From positions 1 to 56,098 of the forward strand of contig CAJWNY010000007.1 in the NCBI GenBank assembly GCA_913043815.1: a stretch of 56,098 nucleotides of DNA, in the 5' to 3' direction. Of the stretch, positions 8,551 through 24,594 are shown in pieces. This DNA comes from an uncultured Gammaproteobacteria bacterium. GTDB lineage: Bacteria; Pseudomonadota; Gammaproteobacteria; Pseudomonadales; Azotimanducaceae. Made by a program: the position numbers and the translations under genes. A model generated the notes under the pieces. It was not told the DNA's origin and searched no databases. It worked only from the letters and a program-made list of their open reading frames with translations. Each line of letters begins with the position of its first letter. Positions within the stretch are counted from its first letter, which is position 1.

Positions 8551-9894
8551 ATGATTAGGATTAAAAAAGGCTTGGATTTGCCCATTTCGGGTAAACCAAC
8601 TCAAGTGATTGACGAGGGTCGGGGAGTTCGTTCGATAGCGGTACTAGGAGATGATTTCCCGGGTATGAAACCCACTATGAACGTCGTGGTAGGTGATCAG
8701 GTTAGAAAAGGGCAAATGCTTTTTTCCGACAAAAAAATAGATGGTGTAGTTTATACCTCGCCTGTAGCGGGGGCCGTAACTGGTATCAACAGAGGAGCAA
8801 AGCGGGCTTTTATTAGCGTTGTCGTAGAGGCGGGTGAAGGTGGAGAAGAGACCTTTCCTGCGTTCGCCCATGAAGAAATTGAATCTTTGCAGCGCAAAGA
8901 TGTCGTAGATCAGCTGCTGATCAGTGGTAGTTGGCCGGCTTTGAGAACCCGGCCTTATTCTCGAGTGCCTGCACCTAATACCGTGCCTAACTCAATCTTT
9001 GTTACGGCTATTGATACTAACCCGCTAGCAGCAGATCCTAAAGTTGTGATTGCTGAGAGTGAGGCAGCTTTCTCCGCGGGCCTCTCAGTATTGACCAAGC
9101 TCACAGATGGTGCGGTGCACCTTTGCCAAGATGATAGCCAAGCACTGGCAGCTTCAACCGACAGTACAGTTTTGAACCATGTTTTTGCGGGCATCCACCC
9201 AGCAGGGCTGCCTGGCACGCATATTCATTTCATTGACCCGGTAGGCCCGAATAAAACGGTATGGTTTGTCGGTTATCAAGACGTTATTGCTTTTGGTCAT
9301 TTGTTTTTGAGCGGTCGAATTTATACCGATCGCGTGGTATCCATCGCAGGACCCGGTGCGGTGAAGCCGCGCTTGGTCAAAACCGTAATGGGCGCAAACT
9401 TAGACGAGCTTACCGCCGGTGAAGTTATAGACGGTGAGCAGCGCGTCATATCTGGGTCAGTGCTAGCAGGTCGAACTGCTAAGGATCTTGTTAGCTTCCT
9501 AGGCCGGTACCACAACCAAGTATCTATTTTGCCAGAAGACCGTGAGCGCCGGTTGATTGGTTATTTGCGTCCGGGTGCAAATAAGCACTCGGTTTTTCCT
9601 GCATTCCTATCCAAATGGATTGGTGAAAAAAGTGTTGCTTTTAATACAAGTACTAATGGCAGTTCACGAGGCATGGTGCCCATTGGCACTTACGACTCAG
9701 TGATGCCATTAGACATACTCGCTACGCAATTGATGCGTAGTTTGTTGGTAGGGGACATTGAAAAAGCTATTGAGCTGGGCTGCTTAGAGTTAGACGAAGA
9801 CGACATTGCGTTATGTACTTATGCATGCCCCGGAAAATACGAGTTTGGCCCTGTGCTAAGAGGCCTACTTTCACAAATAGAAAAGGAGGGCTAG
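8551..9894 (+). CDS. nqrA: Na+-translocating NADH:quinone reductase subunit A
   Basis: Cytoplasmic, cofactor-free subunit of Na+-NQR, which couples NADH oxidation by ubiquinone to sodium export. The 447-residue protein begins with the family's MIRIKKGLDLPISGKP signature and continues with GVVYTSPVAGAV and VFAGIHPAGLPGTHIHFIDPV, all diagnostic of NqrA; length is normal. First gene of a tight six-gene operon: nqrB starts 4 bases after the stop and its ribosome site (AAAGGAGG) lies inside the nqrA 3' end. It follows a 460-base leader with inverted repeats, so expression is probably controlled there. Confidence 0.98.
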   Translation: MIRIKKGLDLPISGKPTQVIDEGRGVRSIAVLGDDFPGMKPTMNVVVGDQVRKGQMLFSDKKIDGVVYTSPVAGAVTGINRGAKRAFISVVVEAGEGGEETFPAFAHEEIESLQRKDVVDQLLISGSWPALRTRPYSRVPAPNTVPNSIFVTAIDTNPLAADPKVVIAESEAAFSAGLSVLTKLTDGAVHLCQDDSQALAASTDSTVLNHVFAGIHPAGLPGTHIHFIDPVGPNKTVWFVGYQDVIAFGHLFLSGRIYTDRVVSIAGPGAVKPRLVKTVMGANLDELTAGEVIDGEQRVISGSVLAGRTAKDLVSFLGRYHNQVSILPEDRERRLIGYLRPGANKHSVFPAFLSKWIGEKSVAFNTSTNGSSRGMVPIGTYDSVMPLDILATQLMRSLLVGDIEKAIELGCLELDEDDIALCTYACPGKYEFGPVLRGLLSQIEKEG

Positions 9895-9898
9895 CCCT

Positions 9899-11089
9899 AT
9901 GAGTTTAAGGTCTTTTCTAGACGATTTGGCGCCTACTTTTGAAAAAGGTGGGCGTTTAGAGGCGCTATATCCGGCTTATGAAGCCATTGATACGGCTTTG
10001 TATACGCCAGGTAAAATTACCGCAGGTGCATCGCACATTCGCGACTCTCTAGATCTGAAACGCATCATGATTACCGTTTGGTTGTGCGCATTCATTCCAG
10101 TATTCGTGGGTAGTTATTTTGTTGGCTTAAATGCCAATGAAGCCATGCAGGCCTTGGGACAAAGTGAAGTTTCTAATTGGCGAGGCATTTTGCTTAACGG
10201 CCTCGTTAATTTTGACCCGAACAGCGTTTTCGACTGCCTTGTGCATGGTCTTGCATACTTTATCCCTCTTTACGTCACTGTCTTTGTGGCAGGGATTATT
10301 TTTGAAATATGGTTTGCATCAAAGCGCGGTCATGAAGTTAACGAAGGCTACTTTGTTACCTCCATTCTATTTACTTTAACCTTACCGCCTTCAATTCCAC
10401 TTTGGATGGCCGCAATTGGCGTTATTTTTGGCGTTGTCATTGGTAAAGAAGTTTTCGGCGGTACCGGCAAAAATTTCCTAAACCCAGCATTAACAGGCCG
10501 AGCATTCTTATACTTCGCTTACCCAGCACAGATGTCTGGGGACGCGGTATGGGTTGCTGTTGACGGATGGACTCAAGCAACGCCATTAGGAAGCTGGGTT
10601 TTAGATGGCGAAGCTGGTGTTGGCGTAGAGTGGTGGAACGCGTTTATTGGTTATATGCCCGGTTCTATGGGCGAAACCTCAACGTTGGCAATTTTGATTG
10701 CCGGTGTGCTTCTTTGCGCAACTCGCATTGCTTCTTGGAGAGTGATGGCGGGTGTTTTCTTAGGCGCTTTCTTAACCGCGTCTTTGTTCAATTCAATTGA
10801 CTCAACAAATCCAATGTTCAGCATGCCTTTCGAATGGCATTTGGTATTGGGTGGACTGGCATTCGGTGCAGTATTTATGGCGACAGATCCGGTTTCTTCC
10901 TCTATGACCAACGATGGCCGTTGGTTTTATGGAATCTTAATAGGTTTTATGTGCCTACTAATCCGCGTCGTTAATCCCGCATTTCCTGAAGGTATGATGT
11001 TGGCGGTTTTGTTCGGTAATTTATTCGCGCCTCTGATAGACCACATTGTGGTGCAAGCGAATATCAAGAGGAGACTGGCACGTGGCTAA
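9899..11089 (+). CDS. nqrB: Na+-NQR subunit B, covalent FMN membrane subunit
   Basis: Integral membrane subunit (396 residues, about 10 predicted helices) that carries covalently bound FMN and riboflavin and takes part in the Na+ pathway. The flavin-linking segment reads VDGWTQATPLG near residues 221-231; Thr228 is the expected FMN attachment residue. The position usually occupied by Gly in the S/T-G-A-T motif is Gln226 here. GKEVFGGTGKNFLNPALTGRAFL is a strong NqrB/RnfD signature. The 3' end overlaps nqrC by 8 bases. Confidence 0.97.
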   Translation: MSLRSFLDDLAPTFEKGGRLEALYPAYEAIDTALYTPGKITAGASHIRDSLDLKRIMITVWLCAFIPVFVGSYFVGLNANEAMQALGQSEVSNWRGILLNGLVNFDPNSVFDCLVHGLAYFIPLYVTVFVAGIIFEIWFASKRGHEVNEGYFVTSILFTLTLPPSIPLWMAAIGVIFGVVIGKEVFGGTGKNFLNPALTGRAFLYFAYPAQMSGDAVWVAVDGWTQATPLGSWVLDGEAGVGVEWWNAFIGYMPGSMGETSTLAILIAGVLLCATRIASWRVMAGVFLGAFLTASLFNSIDSTNPMFSMPFEWHLVLGGLAFGAVFMATDPVSSSMTNDGRWFYGILIGFMCLLIRVVNPAFPEGMMLAVLFGNLFAPLIDHIVVQANIKRRLARG

Positions 11090-11891
11090 ATTAGATAAAG
11101 ACAGTTTAAGGAATACGTTTTTCATTGCGATATTCCTCTGTTTAGTTTGTTCAATTATTGTTTCGGGCTTGGCGGTTGCGTTAAAGCCAATCCAAAAGCT
11201 CAATAAAGAGTTAGATCAAAAGAAAAACATTCTGCGCGCAGCGGGGTTGTTGGCCTCAAATGCTACAGAGTCCGCGGATGGTAAAACCATTGAGCAGCTG
11301 TTCGCCGAATTTACTGTAAGGGCAGTTAACTTAAAAACAGGCGAATACGTAGATGGCGTCGACCTACAAGCCTACGACCCAATTAAGGCAGCAGGCGACG
11401 CAGCTAACTCTATCTCTTTGAGTTCAGACGAAGACATTGCGACACTGCGACGAAGGGAGAACGTATCTTTGGTTTATATTAAGACCAATGGCGCTGGTAT
11501 AGAGAAACTGGTTATTCCAGTGCGCGGCTATGGCTTGTGGGGCACGTTATATGGATATTTGGCTTTGGACGGCGACTTAAGCACGATCTCGGGCCTCGGT
11601 TTTTATGCACACAAAGAAACGCCAGGACTAGGCGGTGAAGTGGACAATCCTAAGTGGAAGAAACGCTGGCAGGGTGTACGTCTCTATGACGACCTAGGTG
11701 ACCCAAGTGTGCGCTTAGTTAAGCAACGCTCTCCTAGCAATAGCACTGCGGCAAGCTATGAAGTAGACGCTCTCTCTGGTGCGACTTTTACGACGCGCGG
11801 CGTTGAAAACCTAGTCAACTTCTGGAGCGGAGAGTTGGGCTTTGGTCCTTACATTCAGAAACTCAAAATCAACGGTGTGGCGCAGGGATAA
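11082..11891 (+). CDS. nqrC: Na+-NQR subunit C, covalent FMN subunit
   Basis: Membrane-anchored periplasmic flavoprotein of the Na+-NQR complex. One N-terminal helix (about residues 12-34) precedes the FMN domain; the attachment motif is intact, DALSGATFTTRGVENLV, with Thr235 as flavin ligand. I place the start at GTG 11082, behind AAGAGGAGA, giving 269 residues and an 8-base overlap with nqrB; an in-frame GTG at 11046 would add 12 residues unlike any NqrC start. ETPGLGGEV is another family motif. Co-transcribed with nqrB and nqrD. Confidence 0.96.
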   Translation: MAKLDKDSLRNTFFIAIFLCLVCSIIVSGLAVALKPIQKLNKELDQKKNILRAAGLLASNATESADGKTIEQLFAEFTVRAVNLKTGEYVDGVDLQAYDPIKAAGDAANSISLSSDEDIATLRRRENVSLVYIKTNGAGIEKLVIPVRGYGLWGTLYGYLALDGDLSTISGLGFYAHKETPGLGGEVDNPKWKKRWQGVRLYDDLGDPSVRLVKQRSPSNSTAASYEVDALSGATFTTRGVENLVNFWSGELGFGPYIQKLKINGVAQG

Positions 11892-11894
11892 ATC

Positions 11895-12557
11895 ATGGCA
11901 TCGCAAAAAGAAGTCTTAATCGACCCAATTTTTAATAATAACCCCATTGCACTGCAGGTTCTTGGAATTTGTTCTGCTCTGGCGGTGACAATAAACATGT
12001 CCACCACGTTGGTTATGTGCATTGCAGTTATATTTGTTACCACAATGTCTAATTTGGCGGTTTCGCTGGTGCGTAACAGAGTACCCACAAACATTCGTAT
12101 CATCGTGCAGATGACGATTATTTCCTCATTGGTAATTATCGTTGACCAAGTACTCCAAGCCGTTGCTTACGACATCTCCAAGAGTTTGTCAGTCTTCGTT
12201 GGCTTGATAATCACAAACTGCATCGTCATGGGTCGCGCCGAAGCTTTTGCTATGCAAAATGGTCCTTGGCTTTCTGCGCTAGACGGTTTTGGTAATGCAG
12301 TGGGCTATAGCGTGATTTTAATTGGTGTTGCGCTAATTAGAGAACCACTCGGTTCCGGCACCTTGATGGGATTCGAAATTATACCTACCGTTGCTAACGG
12401 TGGCTGGTATGTTCCTAACGGTTTGCTGTTACTCGCGCCAAGTGCTTTCTTTATTATTGGTTTGTTCATTTGGGCTATTCGCGCTTGGAAAACAGATCAA
12501 ATAGAGGCTCCTGAATATGAGATTGCGCCAAATGGGCAATATAAGGAGGCGATCTAG
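11895..12557 (+). CDS. nqrD: Na+-NQR subunit D
   Basis: Six-helix membrane subunit, 220 residues, homologous to NqrE and RnfE. With NqrE it forms the inverted pair that binds an intramembrane iron centre through cysteines; Cys26 (LGICSAL) and the Cys in [14 protein letters not shown] occupy the expected places. Starts 3 bases after nqrC; no sign of damage. Confidence 0.97.
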
Positions 12558-12559
12558 GC

Positions 12560-13168
12560 ATGGAACATTATTTAGGCATATTTGTCCGTGCTGTATTCGT
12601 TGAAAACATGGCCCTCGCGTTCTTTTTAGGCATGTGCACGTTTATTGCCATATCAAAGAAAATTTCTACGGCCTTTGGCCTTGGCGTCGCAGTAGTTGCT
12701 GTGTTGGCCATTACCGTACCGGTGAATAATTTGATCTTCAATCTGCTTTTGCGCGATGGCGCGCTGGCATGGGCTGGATTCCCAGATGTCGATTTAAGCT
12801 TCTTGGGCTTGATTTCATACATTGGTGTTATTGCCGCTATCGTGCAGATTCTAGAAATGGTTTTAGATCGTTATGTCCCAGCTTTGTACAATGCATTAGG
12901 TGTGTTTTTGCCTTTAATAACAGTGAATTGTGCTATTTTGGGCGCCTCTCTGATGATGATTGATCAGGACCAAACCTTTGGCGAAAGCGTAGTATTTGGG
13001 CTTGGTGCAGGGGTTGGTTGGGCTTTGGCTATAACCGCATTGGCAGGTGTTAGAGAGAAGCTGAAGTACAGTGACGTGCCAGATGGTTTGCGCGGACTGG
13101 GAATTACGTTCATTTCCGTTGGATTGATAAGCATGTGCTTTATGTCCTTCGGCGGCATCGACATCTAG
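12560..13168 (+). CDS. nqrE: Na+-NQR subunit E
   Basis: Six-helix membrane subunit, 202 residues, partner of NqrD in the iron-binding membrane core. Cys26 (FLGMCTFIA) and the Cys in [12 protein letters not shown] match the metal ligands of NqrE. Other family marks are [18 protein letters not shown] at the N-terminus and [11 protein letters not shown] near the C-terminus. Starts 2 bases after nqrD, so translation is probably coupled. Confidence 0.97.
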
Positions 13169-13177
13169 GAGCTAGTT

Positions 13178-14410
13178 ATGCTGGATACGACGATCTTACT
13201 TGGTGTCCTAATGTTTACCGCCATGGTCTTAGCATTAGTAGGCATGATTTTGTTCGCTCGCTCGCAGTTAGTGAGTTCAGGCAATGTAACAATTTCAATT
13301 AACGACGACCCGTCTAAGTCGGTAGAAGTACCTGCTGGTGGCAAGTTGCTGAGTACCTTGGCGGCCAAGGGTATTTTCCTTGCTAGCGCTTGCGGCGGTG
13401 GCGGCACTTGTGCCCAATGTCGTTGCAGAGTAACGGAAGGCGGCGGTAGCATCCTTGCGACAGAAGAAGGCCATTTCAATCGCGGCGAAATCAGTAATGA
13501 TTGGCGGTTATCCTGTCAGGTTGCTGTCAAGCAGGATCTCAAAATTGAAGTTCCTGATGATGCATTAGGCGTTCAGCGTTGGGAGTGTGAAGTGACTTCC
13601 AATCCGAACGTTGCTTCGATGATTAAAGAGCTTAACCTAAAGCTACCTGAAGGCGCCGATGTAGCTTTTAGGGCGGGAGGTTACGTACAGCTAGAAGTGC
13701 CTCCTTACAATATGGAGTGGTCCAGTATTGATGTTCAAGAGGAATATCGCGAGGACTGGGATAAGTTTAATTTTTGGGGCCTAAAGTCTGATGTGAAAGA
13801 CACCACTATTCGCGCTTACTCCATGGCTAACTACCCAGAAGAGCGCGGTATATTGAAGTTCAACATTCGTGTGTCTCCGCCGCCTCCAAGAATGGATCAC
13901 TTGCCTCCAGGCGCCATGACCTCTTATGTAGCCAACCTTAAAGAAGGGGACAAACTGACCGTATTTGGACCTTACGGCGATTTCTTTGTAAAAGACACGC
14001 CTGCGGAGAAGATTTGGATTGGTGGTGGGGCAGGCATGGCTCCTCTCAGATCGCACATTTTTGACGAACTGAAGCGCAAGGGCACTACCACAAAGATGAG
14101 TTATTGGTATGGCGCGCGTTCTCTTAAAGAAATGTTCTATAAGGAAGAATTTGACCAACTTGCAGCAGACAACGAGAATTTTAATTGGCAGATCGCTCTC
14201 TCCGATCCTCTCGAAGAGGATAATTGGGATGGGTACACCGGCTTCATTCATAACGTAGTTTTTGAGAACTATTTGAAGAACCACCCGAGCCCCGAAGATT
14301 GTGAATTCTACATGTGTGGACCGCCAATGATGGCGCAAGCAGTGCAAAACATGCTTGAAGACCTTGGTGTTGAGCAAGAGAACATTGCGTTCGATGACTT
14401 TGGCGGCTAA
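13178..14410 (+). CDS. nqrF: Na+-NQR subunit F, NADH-oxidising subunit
   Basis: Entry subunit that accepts hydride from NADH; 410 residues. One N-terminal helix (5-27) is followed by a ferredoxin domain with [2Fe-2S] ligands Cys72, Cys78, Cys81 and Cys113, an FAD domain with [11 protein letters not shown], and an NAD-binding domain with [15 protein letters not shown] and CGPPMM near the C-terminus. It is the last nqr gene. A strong stem-loop follows and neither apbE (FMN transferase) nor nqrM (iron delivery), which often follow nqrF, is in the window, so those maturation factors must be encoded elsewhere. Confidence 0.98.
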
Positions 14411-14429
14411 AAGCTAGAGCAGCGTTTAA

Positions 14430-14457
14430 AGAGTGGTTAGGAATGCCTAGCCACTCT
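14430..14457 (+). terminator. Strong stem-loop ending the nqr operon
   Basis: AGAGTGGTTAGG (14430-14441) pairs with CCTAGCCACTCT (14446-14457) over 12 base pairs with one G-T pair and a 4-base loop. T-rich sequence (CCCTTTTTGTGTTTTTTTG) follows about 17 bases later rather than at once, so this may be a terminator or a protective 3' hairpin. Confidence 0.65.
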
Positions 14458-14680
14458 ACTAAATATCCCTAGCGCCCTTTTTGTGTTTTTTTGTTGGCCT
14501 GGGCTCGTCGGGACCTCATTTTTTTTCGTTCTTTTGAGCAGATGCTCTATGTTTATTAGCGGTTGGAGGCACAGCGCACCGTCTAAGTTTCTCTTCTTCA
14601 GTTAAGTTCGGATGACCTACTATTGGCGCAGAGACGGCTGCAACGAAGGCGCTTTGGAGCTGAACGAGTGAGGGCGTAAG

Positions 14681-15439
14681 GTGGATTTAATAGAACAACA
14701 ACTGGAGCAATACTTATCAGATGGTTATTTGCTGTTGCCCAAACTGATAGATTCAAAATCACTAGATATCTACAACCAACGTTTTCTGTCTATAGTAGAA
14801 GGTCAGACGTCAATGTCTGGCGCCATGAAATTGATGAGCGATGTGATGGTGGTGAAGGGTGCCTTAGAGCCTGAAACTAGGTTACACGGGGTTAATAAGC
14901 TTTTTTGTTTAGAAGATGACCCAGTATTGTTTGATTATGCAAGACATCCAAAATTGGTCAGCGCTATTCAAAGTCTTATCGGACCATCCATCTATACGCT
15001 CACTAGTAACGTGTTCAATAAGCCTCCGCAAGTTGACGGGCGACATCCCCTTCATCAGGACTTACGTTATTTCAAATTACGTCCAGAGAATAAAATTGTT
15101 GCTGCGTGGACTGCAATTTTGCCTGCTACAAGAGCGTCAGGGTGTCTGTGCGTAATACCTGGCTCACATCATAATGGCTTGTTGTCTCACGACACGCCAG
15201 ACTGGAAGTTTCTCAATAGAGGTTTCTTTGGCGTATCGGATGTGGACCTAGACCAGCGCCAGCATGTGGAAATGCAACCAGGAGATACGTTGTTATTTCA
15301 CCCGTTGTTGGTACACGGTTCTGGGCGCAATAAAAGTACCGGATTTAGGCGCTCGATCTCTGTACATTTCGCGTCTGGCGAGTGTGAGTCGCCTCGATCT
15401 GACTGGCAAACAACGGGCCAAACTCGCCGCATCAGCTAA
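14681..15439 (+). CDS. Phytanoyl-CoA dioxygenase (PhyH) family protein
   Basis: Fe(II)/2-oxoglutarate dioxygenase-like protein, 252 residues. The facial triad is present: His125-x-Asp127 (HPLHQDLRYF) and His212 (VHGSGRN), with an Arg pair at 223-224 as the likely 2-oxoglutarate anchor. WTAILPATRASGCLCVIPGSH is a typical PhyH core. GTG start at 14681. Substrates in this family range from acyl-CoA to ectoine and phosphonates, and nothing here fixes it. The gene is 81 bases upstream of an EamA exporter on the same strand, which could be co-transcribed. Confidence 0.85.
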   Translation: MDLIEQQLEQYLSDGYLLLPKLIDSKSLDIYNQRFLSIVEGQTSMSGAMKLMSDVMVVKGALEPETRLHGVNKLFCLEDDPVLFDYARHPKLVSAIQSLIGPSIYTLTSNVFNKPPQVDGRHPLHQDLRYFKLRPENKIVAAWTAILPATRASGCLCVIPGSHHNGLLSHDTPDWKFLNRGFFGVSDVDLDQRQHVEMQPGDTLLFHPLLVHGSGRNKSTGFRRSISVHFASGECESPRSDWQTTGQTRRIS

Positions 15440-15520
15440 TTGTCCTTATTATTTTGAATATCGCAGGGCGCTAAGACCTCTAGGGCTCTGCTATCCACGT
15501 TTTAATTATTGGATTTGGTT

Positions 15521-16432
15521 ATGAGCAAAGCTGTCATCGCAAATTTGTTGCTATTGATAACCGCAGCTATTTGGGGCTTTGGGTTCGTAGCACAAGTGAT
15601 GGGTATGAGCTATCTTGGCCCCTACGCCTTTATTGGTCTGCGATTTTTATTGGGTGCAGTAAGCCTCGTACCCGTGATCTACTTTATGCATAAGCGAACA
15701 CCTTTCGATGTATCTGATAGCCGTTCTCTTTGGTTGGGTTGCGGCGTGCTTGGCGCTATACTTTTTACTGCGGGTTCGCTGCAGCAAGTGGGTCTCTTAT
15801 ACACCACTGCATCTAATGCGGGCTTTATTACCGGTACATATATGGTAATCGTGCCGATTTTGGGTTTGATATTAAAATACCAAACCGGCTTGAACACGTG
15901 GTTAGGTTGTTTTTTGGCCGCAGTAGGGTTGTACCTTCTTAGTGTAAAAGAAGGCCTAAGTATAGGGTACGGCGACGGACTTCAGTTGCTGGGCGCGGTG
16001 TTTTGGGCTGCTCACATATTGGCTATTGATCACTTTATTAAACGGGCTCCAGCGCTGCTACTGGCATTTGGGCAGTTTCTTATTTGCGGCGTTTTGGCGC
16101 TTTGCGTCTCCGTCGTATTAGAAGTCACACCTGTTGATGCTGTAGTAGATGCCGTGGGAGTACTTATTTACGCCGGCATAATTACGGTGGGCGTTGCGTA
16201 TACCTTGCAGATCGTAGCGCAAAAAAATGCTAAACCCTCTCATGCTGCCATTATTCTGAGCTTGGAAGCCGTATTTGGTGCCATTGGTGGGGCGTTGTTG
16301 CTTGACGAAGTGCTCTCTCAAAGAGAACTTTTGGGTTGCGCATTAATGCTCTGCGGCATGGTGATTTCGCAGATTTCTTGGAGCGACTTAACTGGCTCAA
16401 CAAATAGCTTCGGTGAACATAGCGAAACATAG
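15521..16432 (+). CDS. EamA/DMT-superfamily transporter
   Basis: A 303-residue inner-membrane protein with ten predicted helices arranged as two EamA repeats. The N-terminus (TAAIWGFGFVAQ) and SLEAVFGAIGGALLLDE in the second repeat are diagnostic of the drug/metabolite transporter family. The ATG at 15521 is preferred over an in-frame TTG 12 bases upstream. Substrate unknown; many relatives export amino acids or other metabolites. It converges on the selenoprotein gene. Confidence 0.88.
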   Translation: MSKAVIANLLLLITAAIWGFGFVAQVMGMSYLGPYAFIGLRFLLGAVSLVPVIYFMHKRTPFDVSDSRSLWLGCGVLGAILFTAGSLQQVGLLYTTASNAGFITGTYMVIVPILGLILKYQTGLNTWLGCFLAAVGLYLLSVKEGLSIGYGDGLQLLGAVFWAAHILAIDHFIKRAPALLLAFGQFLICGVLALCVSVVLEVTPVDAVVDAVGVLIYAGIITVGVAYTLQIVAQKNAKPSHAAIILSLEAVFGAIGGALLLDEVLSQRELLGCALMLCGMVISQISWSDLTGSTNSFGEHSET

Positions 16433-16499
16433 GTATAAAGCTAGTTACCAACCTAGTTAAAAGCCTAGTTATTGATCAGGTGGAGGCATCTACTTTTTG

Positions 16500-17423
16500 T
16501 TAGCCGTCTGCGCTCAAAAACACGCAGCTAGGACAGTGTGGGTCGGCAACGCTTTCATCTTCAGGTAGCTGATATTGAGGCGTGGGCTTGCGACTCAATC
16601 GGTCATCGCCAGGGTCCGGGTTGCTAGCGGTTTTTGGTCGCATTACGCTGTCTTTCCAGGAATCATCCTCAGACCAGCGCAACGCTAGATCTTTAATCGA
16701 GCCAGGTTCAGTCATTTCTTTTACAGCTGTAAGGGCTTGCTGCATAACGTATTTTTGTTCAACTAAATCGCCTTCACGGCCTGCAGTTTGGCCCAGCGGA
16801 TAATCTAGATAAATTGCACGTGGTGGATTCACAGCTTGGGTGATTGAGCGCGCACTGCTCAGTGTAACCGTTGCGATGCCTAGCGCCTCTAGATGTCTAG
16901 CAATCAGTCCAACGGACTGGTGACAGACGGGTCACACAGGTACTAGCACAACCACATCGACCTCGTCTTTAATGATTCGGTTAGCAAGTTCTGGAGCAAG
17001 CTGGGTGCTGACTTTGCGGCTGGAATAGATTCCGCCCATAAAAGTGTAGGCGTTTTTGGCAAGTTCGCCGATTGCTCCCTCATCAGCTAATGCCTCTAGT
17101 CCCTGAGCAGGGAATACTACATTGGGGTCATTACGCGCCGCCGTCATGTCGTAGGCAAAATGGGTAATTCTCAGATCGCTTGGCACTGTGTCAGATTCAA
17201 TGATGCGAAAACTGATGTCGTCTTCATAGTGAAAGGCAATTTGCCCTTTTTTATAAATACCACCTGAGCAAATTAACGCAACTTTGCACTCTCTTAATGG
17301 TTTCTTTAACGTGCTCCAGGGCGCCACCTTAGTATTTTCAACCCATCGATAAACTGGGTAGTTGAGAGCCGCATATTGAGCTTGAGTGCGCGCTATATAA
17401 TCAATCGGTAGAGTTTTATTCAT
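16500..17423 (-). CDS. GrdB-like selenoprotein with in-frame TGA read as selenocysteine
   Basis: One 307-codon gene that standard calling splits in two, because codon 164 is TGA (16934-16932). Upstream (163 residues) and downstream (143 residues) parts are in the same frame and read through as VVLVPVUPVCHQSVGLIARH, matching the glycine/sarcosine/betaine reductase selenoprotein B family. The Sec forms a UxxC redox motif with Cys167. A SECIS-type hairpin starts just after the TGA. Other marks: SGGIYKKGQIAFHYEDDISFR, THFAYDMTAARNDPNVVFP and GLEALADEGAIG in the first part; PPRAIYLDYPLGQTAGREGD and a C-terminal HCPSC motif in the second. ATG 17423 is preferred to an in-frame TTG at 17462. No grd/prd partner genes and no sel genes are nearby. 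Its reaction in aerobes is not known to me; a thiol/selenol redox role is inferred. Confidence 0.9.
16895..16928 (-). promoter_or_regulatory. Bacterial SECIS-type hairpin for selenocysteine insertion
   Basis: On the minus strand, beginning 3 bases after the TGA: GTCT (16928-16925) pairs with AGAC (16898-16895) as an outer helix, then an internal loop, then a perfect 6-base-pair helix CAGTCC/GGACTG (16919-16914 with 16910-16905) capped by GTT. The apical loop begins with G and lies 18 bases after the TGA, which fits what is known of SelB-binding bacterial SECIS elements (short apical stem, early G in the loop, roughly 16-37 bases from the codon). Confidence 0.82.
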
Positions 17424-17589
17424 AGCATGCACGTTAGTAGATGTGGCTCGTGCGGGCAACAAACAATATCCCCTCAGTGAGGTATTGGATTGGGCAGCAT
17501 CTGGAAATTTAACCTTGGCTTTGTCGCTATAGCTTTAACGGCAGCAAAAGATACGGCAGACTAATGGGTAAATAAAAAGGAGAACGAGT

Positions 17590-18108
17590 GTGGTTGCTAA
17601 AGCGAAACGAGTTGGGGAGCAGCGGTACCGGGAATCATATGGCCGGTACTTAGAGGATTTTGTCGTAGGTGATGTGTATGAGCACCGGCCTGGGCGCAGT
17701 ATTACAGAGTCAGACAACACTTGGTTTACTCTACTCACGATGAATCAGCACCCGCTGCATTTTGATAAAGCCTATGGCGAAAAAACAGAATTTGGCCAAA
17801 TTCTGGTAAATTCATGTCTTACTATTTCCATTGTTACTGGCATGAGTGTTTCTGACGTTTCGCAAAAAACTATCGCAAATTTGGGTTGGGATAAAGTGCG
17901 TTTAACAGGTCCAGTATTTATTGGCGATACCATTTACGCAGAATCTAAGGTTTTGAGTAAGCGCATGTCTGGTAGCAGGCCGCACCAAGGTATTGTCACT
18001 GTAGAAACAATTGGTAAAAACCAACATGGAAATCAGGTCATTAGTTTTGAGCGTTCGATGCTGATTCCTGAAACCGGTCATGCAGTAGATGATCAAATCG
18101 AGTACTGA
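17590..18108 (+). CDS. MaoC-family (hot-dog) dehydratase
   Basis: A 172-residue single hot-dog-fold protein of the MaoC/R-specific enoyl-CoA hydratase group. It contains the hydratase loop NQHPLHFDKAYGEKTEFGQILVN, where Asp/His of the family are replaced in part (NxxPLHFD), and GDTIYAESKVLSKR typical of mesaconyl-/itaconyl-type MaoC proteins. GTG start at 17590 with AAGGAG about 8 bases upstream. Divergent from the selenoprotein gene, separated by about 166 bases, so they may share a control region. Likely hydrates or dehydrates a short acyl-CoA; substrate unknown. Confidence 0.85.
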   Translation: MVAKAKRVGEQRYRESYGRYLEDFVVGDVYEHRPGRSITESDNTWFTLLTMNQHPLHFDKAYGEKTEFGQILVNSCLTISIVTGMSVSDVSQKTIANLGWDKVRLTGPVFIGDTIYAESKVLSKRMSGSRPHQGIVTVETIGKNQHGNQVISFERSMLIPETGHAVDDQIEY

Positions 18109-18231
18109 TGTGGCAGCCTAGGTAGATTTAGACAACCTTATACTTGGAGTGCCATCATCAGGGGTTATCGAGGTGCGACAGCGCTGGCTTTAAATTGGCA
18201 GGCAGCTTGTGGAGATTGAGAATATTAGGCG

Positions 18232-18256
18232 GCGTGCGGCAATGACGCGCTTTTTT
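18232..18256 (+). terminator. Probable terminator downstream of the MaoC gene
   Basis: A short GC-rich hairpin (GCGTG pairing with the distal part of ACGCGC, one G-T pair) runs directly into TTTTTT at 18251-18256. The rest of 18109-18386 holds nothing else I recognise. Confidence 0.45.
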
Positions 18257-18386
18257 ATAAGGCATTGGCATTTCTGCGCCCTAGGATGCTTTGCTCTAAG
18301 GGCACGGCAAGGTCCCGGATAAACGGTTATGTCAGGTTAATAAGTCTGGGAAGCTTGTTCCAAGTTGCTCTAGGCGGCGGGAGTTT

Positions 18387-18617
18387 TTAGGCTGCGTAAA
18401 CTAAGTTTGCAATGTCACTAGCATTAGTCGATCGGCTGCGTCCTGCAGCGGTTTCCAAAAGCGTATCGGCTATTACCGCTTCAGCGGTCGGTCTGCATGT
18501 ACCGCAAGCCGTACTAACCAATAAAATTTCCTGAATGGCTTGAAGATCACATGCTCCAGCTTTAACGGCATCGGCTATTTGTTGATCTGACACTGCGTTG
18601 CAAATGCATACGAACAT
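18387..18617 (-). CDS. bfd: Bacterioferritin-associated ferredoxin Bfd
   Basis: Small [2Fe-2S] protein that reduces the heme of bacterioferritin to release stored iron. Starting at ATG 18617 the cysteines fall at positions 4, 6, 38 and 41 (MFVCICNAVS and STACGTCRP), exactly the Bfd spacing, which decides this start over an in-frame ATG 12 bases upstream. The C-terminal 20 residues extend beyond the usual Bfd core (76 residues here against about 64 in E. coli). Divergent from bfr across about 210 bases. Confidence 0.92.
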   Translation of the reverse strand: MFVCICNAVSDQQIADAVKAGACDLQAIQEILLVSTACGTCRPTAEAVIADTLLETAAGRSRSTNASDIANLVYAA

Positions 18618-18830
18618 AAAGAAATCCATTGGATAAATCCGAAGGTATATTCTAAGTGGTAATCATTCTTGTTTGCAATACGTTTTTTAATAGTGATCTC
18701 ATTACTAGATAAGAAACTTTCGCTAATGCGAGTGATTATCGTTATAAATCAATAGCTTAGGGTTAATTTTGTTGCTTTTATACCTATCCTTCTGCATTCT
18801 GTCGCTACATCCAAATATGAGACTTGAGAC
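18618..18830. promoter_or_regulatory. Divergent bfd-bfr control region with Fur-box-like sequence
   Basis: AT-rich spacer between divergent iron-storage genes. Two stretches resemble half of the Fur consensus: GGTAATCATTCTTG near 18658 and GAGTGATTATCGTT near 18730. Fur control of bfd is common in gammaproteobacteria, so binding here is plausible, but the matches are partial and read by eye. Confidence 0.35.
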
Positions 18831-19307
18831 ATGAAAACTCTTGATCCAAAAACAATAGTTCTGCTCAATAAGGTTCTGAAAAATGAACTTACCGCTATTA
18901 ATCAATACTTTTTGCACTCCAAAATGCTCGACGACTGGGGACTTAAGCGTCTAGCTAAGTATGAGATGGGAGAGTCCATCGATGAAATGAAGCATGCGGA
19001 TATGCTCATGGAGCGGATTTTGTTTTTAGACGGACTGCCGAATTTGCAAGAACTCGGCAAGTTAATGATCGGACAATCAGTGAAAGAGATGCTCGAATGT
19101 GATCTCGCGCTGGAAATGATCGCCCTCCCAGATCTGCGCGATGGCGTCGCCCACTGTGAAAGTTGTGGTGACTATGTTTCTCGTAAGTTGTTTAAAGACA
19201 TCCTGGAATCTGAAGAAGAGCATGTGGATTACCTAGAAACGCAACTTGGATTGATTGAAAAAATCGGCATACAAAACTATATTCAGTCACAAATTGGTAC
19301 AGAATAA
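18831..19307 (+). CDS. bfr: Bacterioferritin
   Basis: Heme-containing iron-storage subunit (158 residues, 24-mer in homologues). All ferroxidase ligands are visible: Glu18 (NELTAINQYF), Glu51 and His54 (DEMKHAD), Glu94 (ALEMIA), and Glu127/His130 (EEEHVD). Met52 in DEMKHAD is the heme axial ligand, so this is the heme-binding form. Divergent partner Bfd supplies electrons for iron release. The next gene begins 9 bases later on the same strand. Confidence 0.97.
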   Translation: MKTLDPKTIVLLNKVLKNELTAINQYFLHSKMLDDWGLKRLAKYEMGESIDEMKHADMLMERILFLDGLPNLQELGKLMIGQSVKEMLECDLALEMIALPDLRDGVAHCESCGDYVSRKLFKDILESEEEHVDYLETQLGLIEKIGIQNYIQSQIGTE

Positions 19308-19316
19308 AATAACAAG

Positions 19317-19697
19317 ATGAAATTACGTATGCTCGGCGACAGTCTTCGACTCCGGCTCACTATGCGTGAGACTTATATGATCGGAGAAGGACAGAGTGTA
19401 ATCGAATCTACGTCCTTTTCTGACAGCTCGGTCATGCGCTACGTTTTATCCGTAGAAGGCGATCGAGTGAGCGCCGGCATGGCCCTGAATCAGGGCCAGC
19501 ATCAGTTGGTGATCAAAGTGCCCGCTCACCTTGCGGCGCAATGGAGTCAGTCAACAGATGTGCGCCTTGGCGGTGACGAACTGCTTGATGTAGATGGCTT
19601 GCAAATTCTTATAGAAAAAGACTTTGACTGTGTTGCGCCTCGCTCTGGGGATGAACACATAGACACGTTTCCTAATCCATCGCACACTAAGTGCTGA
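19317..19697 (+). CDS. DUF7009-like conserved hypothetical protein
   Basis: A 126-residue soluble protein with the opening MKLRMLGDSLRLRLTMRE, which matches a small family of unknown function often seen near molybdenum-cofactor or sulfur genes. It begins 9 bases after bfr without a clear ribosome site and ends 14 bases before the convergent mobA. No catalytic motif is apparent; the C-terminus ends in Cys. Family name is from memory and not checked. Confidence 0.6.
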   Translation: MKLRMLGDSLRLRLTMRETYMIGEGQSVIESTSFSDSSVMRYVLSVEGDRVSAGMALNQGQHQLVIKVPAHLAAQWSQSTDVRLGGDELLDVDGLQILIEKDFDCVAPRSGDEHIDTFPNPSHTKC

Positions 19698-19711
19698 CCT
19701 CGGTGTCTGGC

Positions 19712-20386
19712 TTAGACTTTTTTGTTCCGCAATTCTGCAATGGTATTAATGTTTAAAAATTGCCCAGTGTCTTTATAGCTAACGGTAGCGCAGTGAAGTG
19801 ACTCAAGCCATTTATGCACACTGAATTCTCCAGACTGTAGATAGGCCTGCAAATTATCTGCGCATGACGTGCGTATCAGACACAGCAGGGGTTGCAGTCT
19901 CACTCCACCTTGAATTACAACGCTATCAAGTTCTTTACCTTTCTCTGCCCCTTTTTTTGGACCTAGTTTTGTACCTAGTGCCCCAGTTTGTTCTTCGCTG
20001 GTGCCAGTTGCGCACCCTGTACCTTTTTCCGCAACTTGGCGAATGGCTTCATGCCAGCCTTGCTCTAGGTAGGGCATATCTCCCGGGCAAACTAGAAGCC
20101 AAGCGGTTTGTGCGTTACGCAGACCTGCTAAAATGCCCACCAATGGCCCCGAACCTATCTGTTTCGCGTCGAGTACCACGGGTCCACGCTGGGTGTACAT
20201 ATTGATGTTACGATTTGCACTTATGAGGAAAGTGACGTCAGCGGGGAGAGTTGCTATGACGTGGTCTAGCATGGGTAGCTTAAGACCATCTTTTTGCGTC
20301 ATCTGTAGTGGCTTATCTAAGCCGCCCATGCGTGTGCCGGCACCGCCGCACAAAATTAGAGCAGTAATATTTTTTTCCGCTAACAC
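19712..20386 (-). CDS. mobA: Molybdenum cofactor guanylyltransferase MobA
   Basis: Transfers GMP to molybdopterin to form the MGD cofactor of DMSO-reductase-family enzymes. The nucleotide-binding signature LILCGGAGTRMGGLDKPLQ stands at residues 10-28 and the metal-binding Asp in VCPGDMPYL at the usual distance. The 224-residue protein is longer than E. coli MobA (194) because of a hydrophilic Lys/Gly/Glu-rich insert at about 135-160 (GTKLGPKKGAEKGKELD) before the GGVRLQPL strand. GTG start with GGAG upstream. No molybdoenzyme is encoded in the window. Confidence 0.88.
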   Translation of the reverse strand: MLAEKNITALILCGGAGTRMGGLDKPLQMTQKDGLKLPMLDHVIATLPADVTFLISANRNINMYTQRGPVVLDAKQIGSGPLVGILAGLRNAQTAWLLVCPGDMPYLEQGWHEAIRQVAEKGTGCATGTSEEQTGALGTKLGPKKGAEKGKELDSVVIQGGVRLQPLLCLIRTSCADNLQAYLQSGEFSVHKWLESLHCATVSYKDTGQFLNINTIAELRNKKV

Positions 20387-20520
20387 TAAGATTCTCCAGC
20401 GATAAGCCGCCTAGTTTTACACTTGGTACTGAACTGGATAGTAGCCTAGCATCAGAGGGATCCAGTTGGTGCAATAAATCTGCATGGTTGTATAACGTTT
20501 AGTCTAGGGGAGGCTGTTTA

Positions 20521-22074
20521 GTGGGTTATCGTCAAAAAGTCAGCAATTACGACGTACTGATTATCGGTGCGGGTAGTAGTGGTTGTGCCATTGCGGCACG
20601 GGTTTCAGAAGACCCAAATTTACACGTTGCATTAGTTGAGGCCGGTCCAGACTACGAGCGGCTGCAAGATACGCCCGATGATTTGGTAAATTCTCATAAC
20701 AATTCCTATTCAGATCATGATTGGGGTCTTGTTTATGAACCTACTATCGGCCGTAAAGATCGTTTCCCTCGCGGCCGGGTAGTAGGCGGTTCATCCGCGG
20801 TAAACACGACCATTGCGTTAAGAGGTATGCCTGAAGATTACGATGAGTGGGCCGCCCAAGGTAATCCCGGCTGGACTTGGCAAGATGTACTGCCAGGGTT
20901 TAAGCGCCTAGAACGTGATTTGGATTTTCCTGATGCGGCTTACCATGGCGACAGTGGCCCAATAACTATACGCAGATATCCGCCTGCTGAAATGGTTAAA
21001 CAACAGCAAGCGTTTTTAGATTCAGCTGAAGATTTAGGCTACCCCTATTGCGCCGACGCCAATGATCCTGATGGCTACGGGGCTGGACCACACCCAATGA
21101 ATAAACTGGGGAGGCTGCGTATATCCGCAGCAGTAGGCTACCTAGCCTCCGCAAGGATTCGCCCCAATTTAGATGTGTTGGCAGACACCCTGACGCGCCG
21201 CTTAATTATTGAGAATGGCCGCTGCTGTGGTGTTGAAGTTGAGAGTTCAGCCGGCGATGTAAGGGTAATTAAAGCCAGCCTTGTTGTATTATGTGCAGGT
21301 GCGCTGATGTCTCCAACAATACTTGTGCGCTCAGGTGTCGGCGCTAAAACACTGGTAGAAAGTTTGGGCGTAGAGTCCGTGGCGGATATGCCAGGCGTTG
21401 GCGAGAATCTATCCGATCATCCAGCGCTGGGTGTTATTTGTGAAGTTAACGACGCTTCACTAATTGATTTTGATCAACCGATTATTCAAACCATCTTACG
21501 TTATACCGCTCAAGATGGAAAAAAGCGCAATGATCTACAGATTGAGCAAATCAGTTTTGCTGGACGCCCCGGCGGCGCGCCAATGTTTATGTTAGCGCCG
21601 GTATTAGAATATCAATATGGGCGGGGGCGGCTGACGTTTACTTCGGCAGACTCGAGGCTAGGCCCCGGTATTGAAAATCGTTTTTGTGAAGATCCGCGGG
21701 ATGCCCGCCGACTGGCAGAATGTGCGCGCGACACTTTGGCATTTACGCAAACTGGCTCATTGGCAGAGATGATTAAATCTGTCACTTTTCCTGATCTGAA
21801 GCGTGGTGTTGCTCAAGAAGACTTGGAAAATTTGTGTCGTAAGTTTTCTGGGTCTGGATACCATCCCTGCGGTACCGTAAAGATGGGCCCGGTTGAAGAC
21901 ACTATGGCGGTGGTCGATCATAAAGGTCGATGCCACAAAGTGGCCCAGTTAGTGGTTGCGGATGCTTCAATTATGCCCAGCGTACCCAGGGCCAATACCA
22001 ACCTCACGTGCTTCATGATTGGTGAAAAAATAGGCGAGTTAATCAGAACTAACAAAAGTGAATATGGCCTTTGA
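20521..22074 (+). CDS. GMC-family oxidoreductase (choline dehydrogenase-like)
   Basis: FAD-dependent alcohol oxidase/dehydrogenase of 517 residues. The Rossmann motif YDVLIIGAGSSGCAIAARV lies at the N-terminus, followed by FPRGRVVGGSSAVN (GMC signature 1) and GALMSPTILVRSGVG (signature 2). The active-site His is in GSGYHPCGTVKMG near residue 449. GTG start at 20521 behind GGGGAGG. Substrate cannot be fixed; relatives oxidise choline, polyethylene glycol and long-chain alcohols. It is 56 bases upstream of the amidohydrolase and may share its transcript. Confidence 0.9.
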   Translation: MGYRQKVSNYDVLIIGAGSSGCAIAARVSEDPNLHVALVEAGPDYERLQDTPDDLVNSHNNSYSDHDWGLVYEPTIGRKDRFPRGRVVGGSSAVNTTIALRGMPEDYDEWAAQGNPGWTWQDVLPGFKRLERDLDFPDAAYHGDSGPITIRRYPPAEMVKQQQAFLDSAEDLGYPYCADANDPDGYGAGPHPMNKLGRLRISAAVGYLASARIRPNLDVLADTLTRRLIIENGRCCGVEVESSAGDVRVIKASLVVLCAGALMSPTILVRSGVGAKTLVESLGVESVADMPGVGENLSDHPALGVICEVNDASLIDFDQPIIQTILRYTAQDGKKRNDLQIEQISFAGRPGGAPMFMLAPVLEYQYGRGRLTFTSADSRLGPGIENRFCEDPRDARRLAECARDTLAFTQTGSLAEMIKSVTFPDLKRGVAQEDLENLCRKFSGSGYHPCGTVKMGPVEDTMAVVDHKGRCHKVAQLVVADASIMPSVPRANTNLTCFMIGEKIGELIRTNKSEYGL

Positions 22075-22130
22075 TCAGCGCTGGGCTAGGTTTACATAAG
22101 AACGAATAGAAAAAGTTATAGGTAGAAAAA

Positions 22131-23624
22131 ATGAACGATCTAATTTTCCGCAATGTAAATATTTTGGATGGAACGGGCGCGCCCGCATTTGAGGGTGATG
22201 TCAGTGTTAGCGCGGGGCGCATTAATGAAGTGGGGAATGTCTCGGAAGGATTAGCTCCTAGTGGTCGAGAGATAGATGCGGCTGGTGCGACGCTCGCCCC
22301 AGGGCTTATTGACACCCATGCTCATGATGATGGTGCCTTTTTTCGTTATCCAGGCATGGAGTTTAAACTCGCTCAAGGTGTGACTACAGTCGTTAGTGGT
22401 AATTGCGGCTTTTCCGCTATTCCTGCGGATCCGACACAAGATTCTGTTGCTGCAAGTGGTGGCATTCTTGCTGGCCTTGAAGGGCAGTTTACCGATCTTG
22501 ATGGCTACTTTGCCGCGGCTTTAGAACGCCAGCCAGCCATTAATAACATGATGTTAGTGGGTCACAATACGGTGCGTTCCCTGACGATGGGTGCAGAAAA
22601 ACGCCCGCCAACAGATACTGAAATCGCCTTGATGCAAGAACATGTAAGTCATGCTTTAGAGCAGGGAGCTTGTGGTTTTTCCAGCGGCCTAATTTATCGT
22701 CCAGGTCGTTATAGCGAAACAGCAGAGGTTATTGAGCTCGCCAAAATGGCTGCCCCCTTCGATGCGCTTTATACCACCCACATGCGCAATGAAGGCGACA
22801 AGTTGATAGAAGCCGTAGAGGAAAGCTTAGCCATTGCTAAGGCCAGCAATGTGCATTTGCACATTTCCCATCACAAATCTGCCGGCAAAGCGAACTGGGG
22901 CAAGGTTAAGGCCTCGTTAGCTCGTGTAGATGAGGCTTTGTCTCAAGGGCAGCGCGTGACCTTGGATGTATACCCCTACACCGCGGGCAGCGGTCGAATG
23001 ATTGAGTACTTTGATTTGCAGCGGGTTAATGAAGATTTTGCTGAAGTTGTGCGCATCGCTAATTGTAAAGCGTTTCGACAGTACGAGGGCCGTATGTTGA
23101 TTGACATAGCAAAAGAGGAAGAGACCAGCTTAACCGAGTTGGTGAAGAAGATTTTGACCGCACCTAACGGTGATCGCACTCTGTGTATTCATTTCATTAT
23201 TGACGAGAACGATGTGGAAACCAATCTTGCCCATGCTGACATGATGGTGGGTAGTGACGGCATTCCAGATCTCCGTGGTAAACCTCATCCCAGGTTATTT
23301 GGCACGTTTCCACGTGTGTTAGGCCACTATGTGCGTGAACGCGGCGTGCTTAGTTTGCCCGAAGCAGTGAGACGAATGACCTCATTGTCTGCACGTACAT
23401 TCGGTATGTTGGATAGAGGTGAGATTAAATCTGGTTATCACGCAGATTTGGTTTTATTTCAACCTGACACTGTCATTGATCGCGCCACCTATGATGAGCC
23501 AATGGAAGCGCCGGCAGGTATAGATATGGTGGTAGTGAACGGTCAGGTTGCGCTAAAAGGAGATCAGCACAGTGGTGTGGGCGCAGGACAGATGCTGCGC
23601 TATCGGCGTGGTGCATTTGCTTAG
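22131..23624 (+). CDS. N-acyl-D-amino-acid deacylase-like amidohydrolase
   Basis: A 497-residue metal-dependent amidohydrolase of the D-aminoacylase group, which frees the amino acid from N-acyl-D-amino acids or similar amides. The HxH metal motif is in GLIDTHAHDDGAFF, GNCGFSAIP carries the family Cys, HISHHKS supplies further metal ligands, and MMVGSDGIPD the conserved Asp. The last 60 residues complete the small beta domain (LFQPDTVIDRATY). Starts 56 bases after the GMC gene. Confidence 0.88.
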   Translation: MNDLIFRNVNILDGTGAPAFEGDVSVSAGRINEVGNVSEGLAPSGREIDAAGATLAPGLIDTHAHDDGAFFRYPGMEFKLAQGVTTVVSGNCGFSAIPADPTQDSVAASGGILAGLEGQFTDLDGYFAAALERQPAINNMMLVGHNTVRSLTMGAEKRPPTDTEIALMQEHVSHALEQGACGFSSGLIYRPGRYSETAEVIELAKMAAPFDALYTTHMRNEGDKLIEAVEESLAIAKASNVHLHISHHKSAGKANWGKVKASLARVDEALSQGQRVTLDVYPYTAGSGRMIEYFDLQRVNEDFAEVVRIANCKAFRQYEGRMLIDIAKEEETSLTELVKKILTAPNGDRTLCIHFIIDENDVETNLAHADMMVGSDGIPDLRGKPHPRLFGTFPRVLGHYVRERGVLSLPEAVRRMTSLSARTFGMLDRGEIKSGYHADLVLFQPDTVIDRATYDEPMEAPAGIDMVVVNGQVALKGDQHSGVGAGQMLRYRRGAFA

Positions 23625-23742
23625 CCAAATTTGGCTATAGCTGAGATGTCTTCTGCCTTGCCTTCAACGGTGCAAAAAAGCAGACTTCGCGCTGACAAAT
23701 TTCCGCCAGCATTTTCTGGCCGCTAAGACTAATGGAGTAATT

Positions 23743-24540
23743 ATGACTTTTTTGACAAAAAATCTAAGTAATCACGTATTGACACTTACTATGTCTAGTC
23801 CAGACACGCGCAACGCGCTGACAGGACCGGATCAGTTTGAGGATTTTGAGCGCACCTGTGAGGAGATTAATGACAATAAAGCAATTCGCGCGGTTGTCTT
23901 GACTGGCGAGGGTTCTGCTTTTTGCGCGGGCGGTAATGTTAAAGATATGCGTGATCGCACTGGTCTTTTTAGTGGCGACCCCTTTGATCAAGCAGACTCT
24001 TATAGGCGCGGTATTCAGCGTATTCCTCGCGCTATCTATGCGTTGAATGTGCCAATCATTGCTGCGGTTAACGGTCCTGCGGTAGGCGCGGGCTGTGATT
24101 TGGCGACTATGTGCGACATTCGCATTGCCAGTGAAAAAGCAATGTTTGCTGAAAGCTTCGTTAAACTGGGCATTATTCCTGGTGATGGCGGCGCTTGGTT
24201 TTTGCCAAGAGCAGTGGGCTATTCCAATGCGTGCATGATGGCTTTTTCAGGAGAGCCAGTGAAGGCAGACGCGGCGTTGCGCATGGGGTTGGTCTCTGAA
24301 GTTGTGGCACCCGAAGATTTGCTGGCACGGGCGCAAAGTATTGCTGCCGGCATTGCTGCTAATCCGCCCCACGCGGTACGCCTTACCAAACAGTTAATGC
24401 GCGCCAGCCAAAATGCTACATTGGATGAACTTCTAGACAAGTCTGCAGCGTTCCAAGCTGTTTGCCACGCGGAACCTGATCATATGGAGGCCGTTAATGC
24501 CTTCTTTGAAAAGCGCCCTGGCAACTACCGCGAGCAATAG
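23743..24540 (+). CDS. Crotonase-fold enoyl-CoA hydratase/isomerase with altered active site
   Basis: A 265-residue crotonase. The oxyanion-hole regions are intact (GSAFCAGGNVKDM and NGPAVGAGCDLATMCD). The two catalytic Glu of classical hydratases are not present: Asp119 stands at the first position and Phe139 at the second (FAESFVKLGIIPGDGG). This argues against a standard hydratase and for an isomerase or other crotonase reaction. Stand-alone gene with ribosome site GGAG; the neighbours suggest acyl-CoA catabolism. Confidence 0.85.
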   Translation: MTFLTKNLSNHVLTLTMSSPDTRNALTGPDQFEDFERTCEEINDNKAIRAVVLTGEGSAFCAGGNVKDMRDRTGLFSGDPFDQADSYRRGIQRIPRAIYALNVPIIAAVNGPAVGAGCDLATMCDIRIASEKAMFAESFVKLGIIPGDGGAWFLPRAVGYSNACMMAFSGEPVKADAALRMGLVSEVVAPEDLLARAQSIAAGIAANPPHAVRLTKQLMRASQNATLDELLDKSAAFQAVCHAEPDHMEAVNAFFEKRPGNYREQ

Positions 24541-24559
24541 ATCGCTAAGCCCACGTATT

Positions 24560-24589
24560 CGACCGTTGGAGTATTTAGCCTTGCGGTCG
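24560..24589. terminator. Hairpin between convergent genes
   Basis: CGACCG (24560-24565) pairs with CGGTCG (24584-24589) and TTTTAC follows on the plus strand. It lies between the convergent crotonase and acetyltransferase genes and probably stops the former. Confidence 0.5.
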
Positions 24590-24594
24590 TTTTA

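Follow-up and report, generated by a model that had tools for sequence, protein, structure and literature searches.

A PrdB-like selenoprotein gene with an in-frame TGA in a gammaproteobacterial family, possibly encoding a PrdA-independent reductase

Results

The PrdB-like gene and its in-frame TGA

The window, the whole 56,098-nucleotide stretch of DNA analysed here, belongs to a 2.85 Mb genome (133 contigs, 90% complete) of the gammaproteobacterial family Azotimanducaceae. A PrdB-like selenoprotein gene of 307 codons and a TAA stop, with one internal TGA, occupies positions 16500-17423 of the minus strand, as defined by translation and by profile matches upstream and downstream of the TGA. 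This TGA (16932-16934, minus strand) is the putative selenocysteine codon 164, the first residue of a UxxC pair. The second residue of the pair, Cys167 (16923-16925, minus strand), is followed by the invariant His168 and is present in 30/30 sequences of the family alignment. A CPSC motif (Cys297 and Cys300; 16524-16535, minus strand) is located at the C-terminus. The sequence-only reading had joined the frames 17423-16935 and 16931-16500 into one minus-strand frame split by the TGA at 16934-16932; translation reproduced the coordinates exactly, together with the 307-residue length and the motif VPVUPVCHQSVGLIARH. The upstream half corresponds to positions 14-144 of the PrdB profile TIGR04483 and the downstream half to positions 150-232, in register. 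According to the six-frame scan of the 56-kb window, the TGA at 16934-16932 is the single one preceded by at least 60 open codons and followed by at least 80.

Genome-wide reassignment of TGA was considered and rejected. The codon ends 6 of the 34 other ORFs chosen as main genes of the window, and 7 of the 30 family genes have a terminal TGA besides the internal one, so it serves as an ordinary stop in other genes.

Conservation of the TGA codon and its cysteine counterparts

The window's taxonomic family was surveyed in 200 genomes, and the 30 best-scoring loci (L032-L061, with L032 being the window) formed the family alignment. The window and 29/29 best-scoring relatives (57-88% identity) share the TGA at this codon. 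The same TGA in independent genomes is not a read error, and sequencing error, which reads with a sense codon at 16934-16932 would have indicated, was rejected. Mean identity of the 29 relatives to the window protein is 62.9% in the upstream half and 62.9% in the downstream half. In 29 of the 30 loci the downstream frame runs uninterrupted to the C-terminal motif, and in the remaining one to the contig edge; no frameshifts or random stops were found in this half among the 30 loci; the relatives keep in frame the half whose loss the sequence-only reading had named as counter-evidence. The frame of one locus (L034; G167, contig C249) ends at the contig edge in VSYTHLTLPTN, presumably sequencing-adapter sequence by its look.

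Some PrdB-like protein was matched in 175 of the 200 family genomes. Among the matches listed, those with at least 51% identity (one per genome, window included) place the subfamily in at least 83 genomes. By hand count, one TGA lies inside the match in all 83 of them, window included, and a TAG or TAA is also present inside the match in 3. Four MAG contigs (L020-L022 and L024, also with TGA) are the same contigs as L033-L036 and were counted once. Gene finders halting at the TGA would lose or split the selenoprotein gene, the carriers being at least 83 of the 200 sampled family genomes.

On contigs C90 and C69, the window genome carries two further PrdB-like genes, each likewise containing a TGA in frame, at 34% identity. 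One paralogue (L064) is located at 8096-8881 of C90; the other (L065) starts at 2255 of C69 and extends about 178 codons past the matched region as an extra C-terminal part.

Eight distant homologues (L023 and L025-L031; 33-47% identity), from a Desulfobacteraceae MAG, Burkholderiales, Rhizobiaceae and other sources, have TGC or TGT at the selenocysteine position. The 12-locus search that gave them was queried with Cys at this position, and its proportion of 8/12 is biased towards Cys forms. Cys is also found there in L105 and L106. The alignment of homologues proposed earlier thus returned both residues, with TGA in close relatives and Cys in distant ones. Outside the family, the protein was detected in 3 of 228 other genomes of the class sample (E 1e-10). 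G290 has the sole TGA homologue of the three, and its genome has selA; G250 and G389 have Cys homologues in other gammaproteobacteria, with no selA match in either genome. selA is present in 6 of the 8 genomes behind the other Cys homologues, suggesting that the Cys form is not simply forced by a missing pathway. In the tree, the window subfamily joins a sister Sec subfamily (the join being only 86/63), apart from operon-encoded PrdB, and the Sec and Cys forms are interleaved: L062 (Sec) stands among Cys rows and L023 (Cys) among Sec rows. Several branches are long, so that the deep joins are unsure.

Selenocysteine machinery

All four sel genes for which the sequence-only reading had proposed a search are present in the window genome. 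SelA (516 bits), SelB (360 bits) and SelD (257 bits) each score above the curated cut-off, and ARAGORN detected selC as a tRNA-Sec with the TCA anticodon. Contigs C130 (selB and selC) and C58 (selA) share an exact 55-base end inside selB, placing selA, selB and selC in one cluster. C58 also bears an sdh operon, identified by eye.

In the family, selA was matched in 173 of the 200 genomes, in 163 of them above the cut-off. The cross-count with the subfamily gave a selA match, a few of them weak fragments, in 71 of the 83 genomes; seven of the genomes without selA were identified by elimination. ARAGORN detected tRNA-Sec in 4 (G087, G104, G163, G168) of the 12 subfamily genomes lacking a selA match. 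For the remaining 8 the best tRNA-Sec hits are other tRNAs in 7, and G185 has no hit. Thus 8 of the 83 subfamily genomes, 68-96% complete (G187, 96%), are without detected Sec machinery. The RF01852 model scores tRNA-Ser near or above its cut-off in this group, where hits near 45-48 bits need checking: G048:C286:3356-3444 exceeds the cut-off and is tRNA-Ser according to ARAGORN. Because RF01852 alone is unreliable here, tRNA-Sec assignment relied on ARAGORN.

SECIS-type hairpin

Folding places a SECIS-type hairpin at 16895-16928 (minus strand), with a conserved core at 16900-16924 and the apical loop GTT at 16911-16913. The prediction that the hairpin begins three bases past the TGA, with the apical GTT beginning after 18 bases, was borne out by this folding (-12.6 to -13.8 kcal/mol and z of -1.9 to -3.3 across three sequence cuts). 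Over 42 bases, counted from the TGA, the 30 genomes align without gaps. The core helix (columns 11-35, window 16924-16900) has standard pairs in 97.6% of 290 cells, versus 9.7-39.3% in the control with the partner slid by 1-3 columns. One stem pair shows a double compensatory change from G-C to A-U (L044) and another varies from U-A to U-G; 6 of the 10 stem pairs are invariant, and 7 of the 29 distinct sequences, including the window, do not form pair 15-31. The covariation measure was equalled by 18 of 500 shuffles, and covariation alone is thin support for the hairpin; synonymous positions are clearer.

The codons of the upper stem are frozen at invariant residues (Gln CAG in 29/30, Ser TCC in 30/30, Gly GGA in 29/30, Leu CTG in 29/30), and the Val codon whose third base is a free loop base uses all four codons. 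Codons at the stem foot are looser (His 23/30, Ile 21/30). Elsewhere in the gene, 69 invariant degenerate columns average 3.4 codons, the commonest at 54%. The core TCCGTNGGA is found in 29 of the 30 family members and in none of the 8 Cys homologues, three of which (L025, L026 and L030) fold another stable hairpin in the same stretch. Rfam at the gathering threshold gave no match in 8000-27000, and the promoter and terminator scans were no better than shuffles.

Family scores, active site and C-terminal tail

Read through the TGA, the protein has PrdB (TIGR04483) as its best named family, at 157 bits (E 5e-46; cut-off 300 bits), and the GrdB match is 63 bits, so that the protein is below the curated cut-offs of both. 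PF07355 (GRDB) is passed with 51.9 bits versus a gathering cut-off of 22, over positions 212-345 of 347. TIGR01917, TIGR01918, NF040794 and NF040795 give 60-65 bits over only about positions 211-426 of about 431-435, and TIGR01918 is missed (60.1 versus 65.45). Of the "GrdB-like" label given by the sequence-only reading, membership in the GrdB superfamily is retained, and the nearest named family is PrdB, not GrdB.

The active site U-P-V-C-H-Q runs from U164-P-V-C167-H168 onward. Of the 30 family members, 29 keep a C-terminal CxxC; the other one is truncated at a contig edge. No CxxC was found in the tails of the sister Sec subfamily (L100-L104, 5/5), of L023, L105, L106 and L026, or of the two PrdB-like paralogues of the window genome. 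Judged from the sequences examined, the C-terminal CxxC is a mark of the window subfamily. The AlphaFold2 model, built from an 11-sequence alignment (mean pLDDT 84.4, pTM 0.88), places residue 164 between the strand 157-161 and the helix 165-180. The CxxC tail lies in the low-confidence part of the model (pLDDT < 50), which makes a redox relay conjectural and leaves room for metal binding. Searches of solved structures by sequence gave none at E <= 1 with the single protein and a best E of 0.28 with the profile; no Foldseek hit in the PDB reached E <= 0.001 (best 0.011). With no clearly related solved structure, there is no functional lead from structure.

Gene neighborhood

Both flanking genes of the selenoprotein gene, MaoC-like and EamA-like, are on the opposite strand. 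A Na+-NQR-type operon (8551-14410) is convergent to it with two genes between; its NqrF-type gene was identified by Pfam and the remainder by eye. The window also has a ferritin-like protein (Pfam) at 18831-19307 and a short ORF at 18387-18629 that resembles bacterioferritin-associated ferredoxin by eye.

We compared 37 stretches of unequal length (the window and 36 others). The NqrF-type gene is present in 16 of them, EamA in 12 and MaoC in 12. Members of the genus often retain a block of NQR-type, EamA, MaoC, ferritin-like and GMC oxidoreductase genes; elsewhere the neighbors differ (SufBD, DUF2799, luciferase-like and, by eye, enoyl-CoA hydratase). Both immediate neighbors are on the opposite strand in 15/37 stretches, window included; the other 22 have at least one same-strand neighbor of no constant identity, and no constant neighbor gene was found across the 37. 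As the gene order is kept mainly within the genus and is lost in many stretches, nearness to NQR-type genes says little on function. Prediction of the function by gene-neighborhood association was rejected as giving no lead, the neighbors changing outside the genus.

The organism is probably marine and aerobic, judging from its relatives (K189A clade, HTCC2089, North Sea) and from the NQR- and sdh-type genes. The aerobic respiratory setting noted by the sequence-only reading is retained in that NQR-type genes are nearby. It is not unexpected, as marine PrdB-type UxxC selenoproteins were catalogued in 2005 and 2008, going by the available text of those surveys.

PrdA in the family genomes

D-proline reductase requires PrdA, the pyruvoyl group of which binds the substrate; prdA and prdB stand together in the Terrisporobacter and Enterococcus plasmid operons. 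The PrdA profile found no protein above the cut-off in the 200 family genomes and no match in the window genome (90% complete); the positive control was detected in 2/2 control records, at 857-975 bits. The lone weak hit, in G015, is a GrdG-like protein of a GrdG/GrdF-like pair, suggesting that component B alpha subunits are within reach of this search. This pair (L107, 152-2469 of contig C195) was found in 1 of the 200 family genomes. The GrdF-like frame has a TGA in S-T-(TGA)-G-T-C-T-R, the place of selenocysteine in GrdB-type proteins, and the gene probably encodes another selenoprotein.

Discussion

We predict, with near certainty, that selenocysteine is inserted at the TGA of 16934-16932, on the basis of the sel genes, the same TGA in relatives, Cys in distant homologues and the SECIS-type hairpin. 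The core claim of the sequence-only reading, that an in-frame TGA conceals a GrdB-superfamily protein with selenocysteine, is supported by the sel genes, the homologues and the TGA in relatives.

That the TGA is a genuine stop, in a pseudogene or between two separate genes, would agree with the end of standard translation at 16932 and with the downstream half having its own GTG at 16832. The chance of this is minimal, given the TGA in 30/30 family loci with equally conserved halves, the uninterrupted downstream frame that reaches the C-terminal motif in 29/30, the stem codons frozen in the hairpin and the presence of the sel genes. Readthrough of the TGA by other means, such as Trp or Cys misreading, a suppressor tRNA or a recoded genome, is possible in principle with nothing specific in its favor, and we give it next to no weight: Cys is aligned in 8 distant homologues with a sense codon, the genome has tRNA-Sec and the full pathway and uses TGA as a normal stop in other genes, and the SECIS-like hairpin is at the expected distance.

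The identity of the protein is a separate matter. An ordinary D-proline reductase subunit PrdB, acting in Stickland-type proline reduction, would explain the best named match (TIGR04483, E 5e-46) and the UxxC motif, and marine surveys label such proteins PrdB in their available text. We consider it very unlikely that the window protein is a D-proline reductase, judging by the profile searches: it scores 157 bits versus a cut-off of 300, and PrdA above the cut-off was found in 0/200 family genomes (control 2/2) though 175/200 have a PrdB-like protein. The two operon-encoded PrdB examined, moreover, are 241 aa proteins with UGTCHR or CGTCHR in a prdC-prdA-x-prdB arrangement; the window gene has oppositely oriented flanking genes and its protein is extended at both termini. 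Membership in a glycine/sarcosine/betaine reductase-like complex, as its GrdB/GrdF-type substrate-binding subunit, is improbable too. The passing of PF07355 (51.9 versus 22) and the GrdG/GrdF-like pair in 1/200 family genomes are consistent with it; against it, the match covers only about the last 200 of about 431 profile positions, TIGR01918 is missed, and the PrdA profile, an indirect probe for component B alpha, has no match in 199/200 genomes, the window's included.

With PrdA missing, the pyruvoyl group needed for holding an amino-acid substrate would be missing too, and the window protein is therefore most likely a PrdA-independent reductase. SelB with Sec-tRNA would bind the hairpin just past the TGA and insert Sec164, giving the 307-residue PrdB-like protein, whose predicted active site U164-P-V-C167-H168 would lie at the helix start. 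The selenolate of Sec164 may attack an electrophilic or oxidised small molecule, Cys167 would resolve the selenenyl-sulfide, and a thioredoxin- or glutaredoxin-type donor may supply electrons through the C-terminal CxxC tail. This selenol/thiol scheme, involving Sec164, Cys167 and the CxxC tail, is tentative, and we put it at slightly under even odds. The three paralogues of the window genome suggest several substrates or substrate specialisation. A GrdB/GrdE-like pair has been proposed, in the available text of the source, to cleave the C-F bond of fluoroacetate, suggesting that the superfamily takes other substrates (PMC10838667).

PrdB-type UxxC selenoproteins in sea water have been known since 2005, and the kind is not new: the available text of the surveys places PrdB among the leading selenoproteins of sea water, with 42 PrdB sequences in the Sargasso Sea set of 2005 (PMC1088965), 235 PrdB sequences with the motif UxxC in the GOS set of 2008 (PMC2398784), and proline reductase at 6.4% in 2021 (PMC9402790). 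In the accessible portions of other sources, Sec users are about equally often aerobic (40.4%) and anaerobic (35.8%) (PMC5029168), and proline reductase is among the selenoproteins of several anaerobes (PMC1794560). The reviews, as far as their available text goes, give D-proline reductase with UxxC and do not discuss a PrdA-free form (PMC13188914, PMC9312934). Among the titles and abstract openings listed by searches of an open-access library, none describes a PrdA-free form, which is no proof of absence.

The remaining interest is in a common ocean selenoprotein named against the genome evidence and in a subfamily marked by a second, distinctive motif of redox type. There is, in our estimate, an even chance that this selenoprotein has been misfiled, being a PrdA-free, CxxC-armed Sec-x-x-Cys reductase of (probably aerobic, marine) gammaproteobacteria with another substrate. 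If the surveyed marine PrdB are mostly PrdA-free, a sizeable share of marine selenium use would serve a reaction other than D-proline reduction, and the automatic PrdB label would direct readers to anaerobic amino-acid metabolism, of which the genomes examined give no sign by the PrdA profile.

Comparison with known systems

PrdB of the Terrisporobacter and Enterococcus plasmids has 30-31% identity to the window protein and shares the U/C-x-x-C-H site, and both PrdB and window-type proteins have Sec or Cys at the same place. The site is UGTCHR in the Terrisporobacter plasmid PrdB and CGTCHR in the Enterococcus one, whereas it is UPVCHQ in the window protein. These two operon-encoded PrdB are 241 aa long and lack the C-terminal CxxC, while the window protein of 307 aa is longer by about 13 residues at the N-terminus and about 55 at the C-terminus, and carries CPSC. 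They are encoded in prdC-prdA-x-prdB, unlike the window gene with both flanking genes on the opposite strand. Relative to the PrdB profile TIGR04483, the window protein reaches half the cut-off, and PrdA was not found in its genome.

GrdB, GrdF and GrdH have in common with the window protein the C-terminal portion of the same superfamily and the UxxC, but the window protein is without the N-terminal approximately 200 profile positions and is below every NCBIfam cut-off tried. Cys homologues such as that of a Roseomonas plasmid (L110) and the Burkholderiales-type ones (L025-L031) have 33-36% identity to it. The Roseomonas plasmid copy is named 'glycine/sarcosine/betaine reductase selenoprotein B family protein' and has no annotated prd genes adjoining. 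L025-L031 have CPVCHQ in place of UPVCHQ, and the tail of L026, unlike that of the window protein, is without the C-terminal CxxC.

The marine 'proline reductase PrdB' selenoproteins, of the UxxC and PF07355/PrdB type, probably belong to the same broad group as the window protein, the likeness being by description only. In the available text of the surveys these sets are counted and labelled with no word on a missing PrdA or a C-terminal CxxC.
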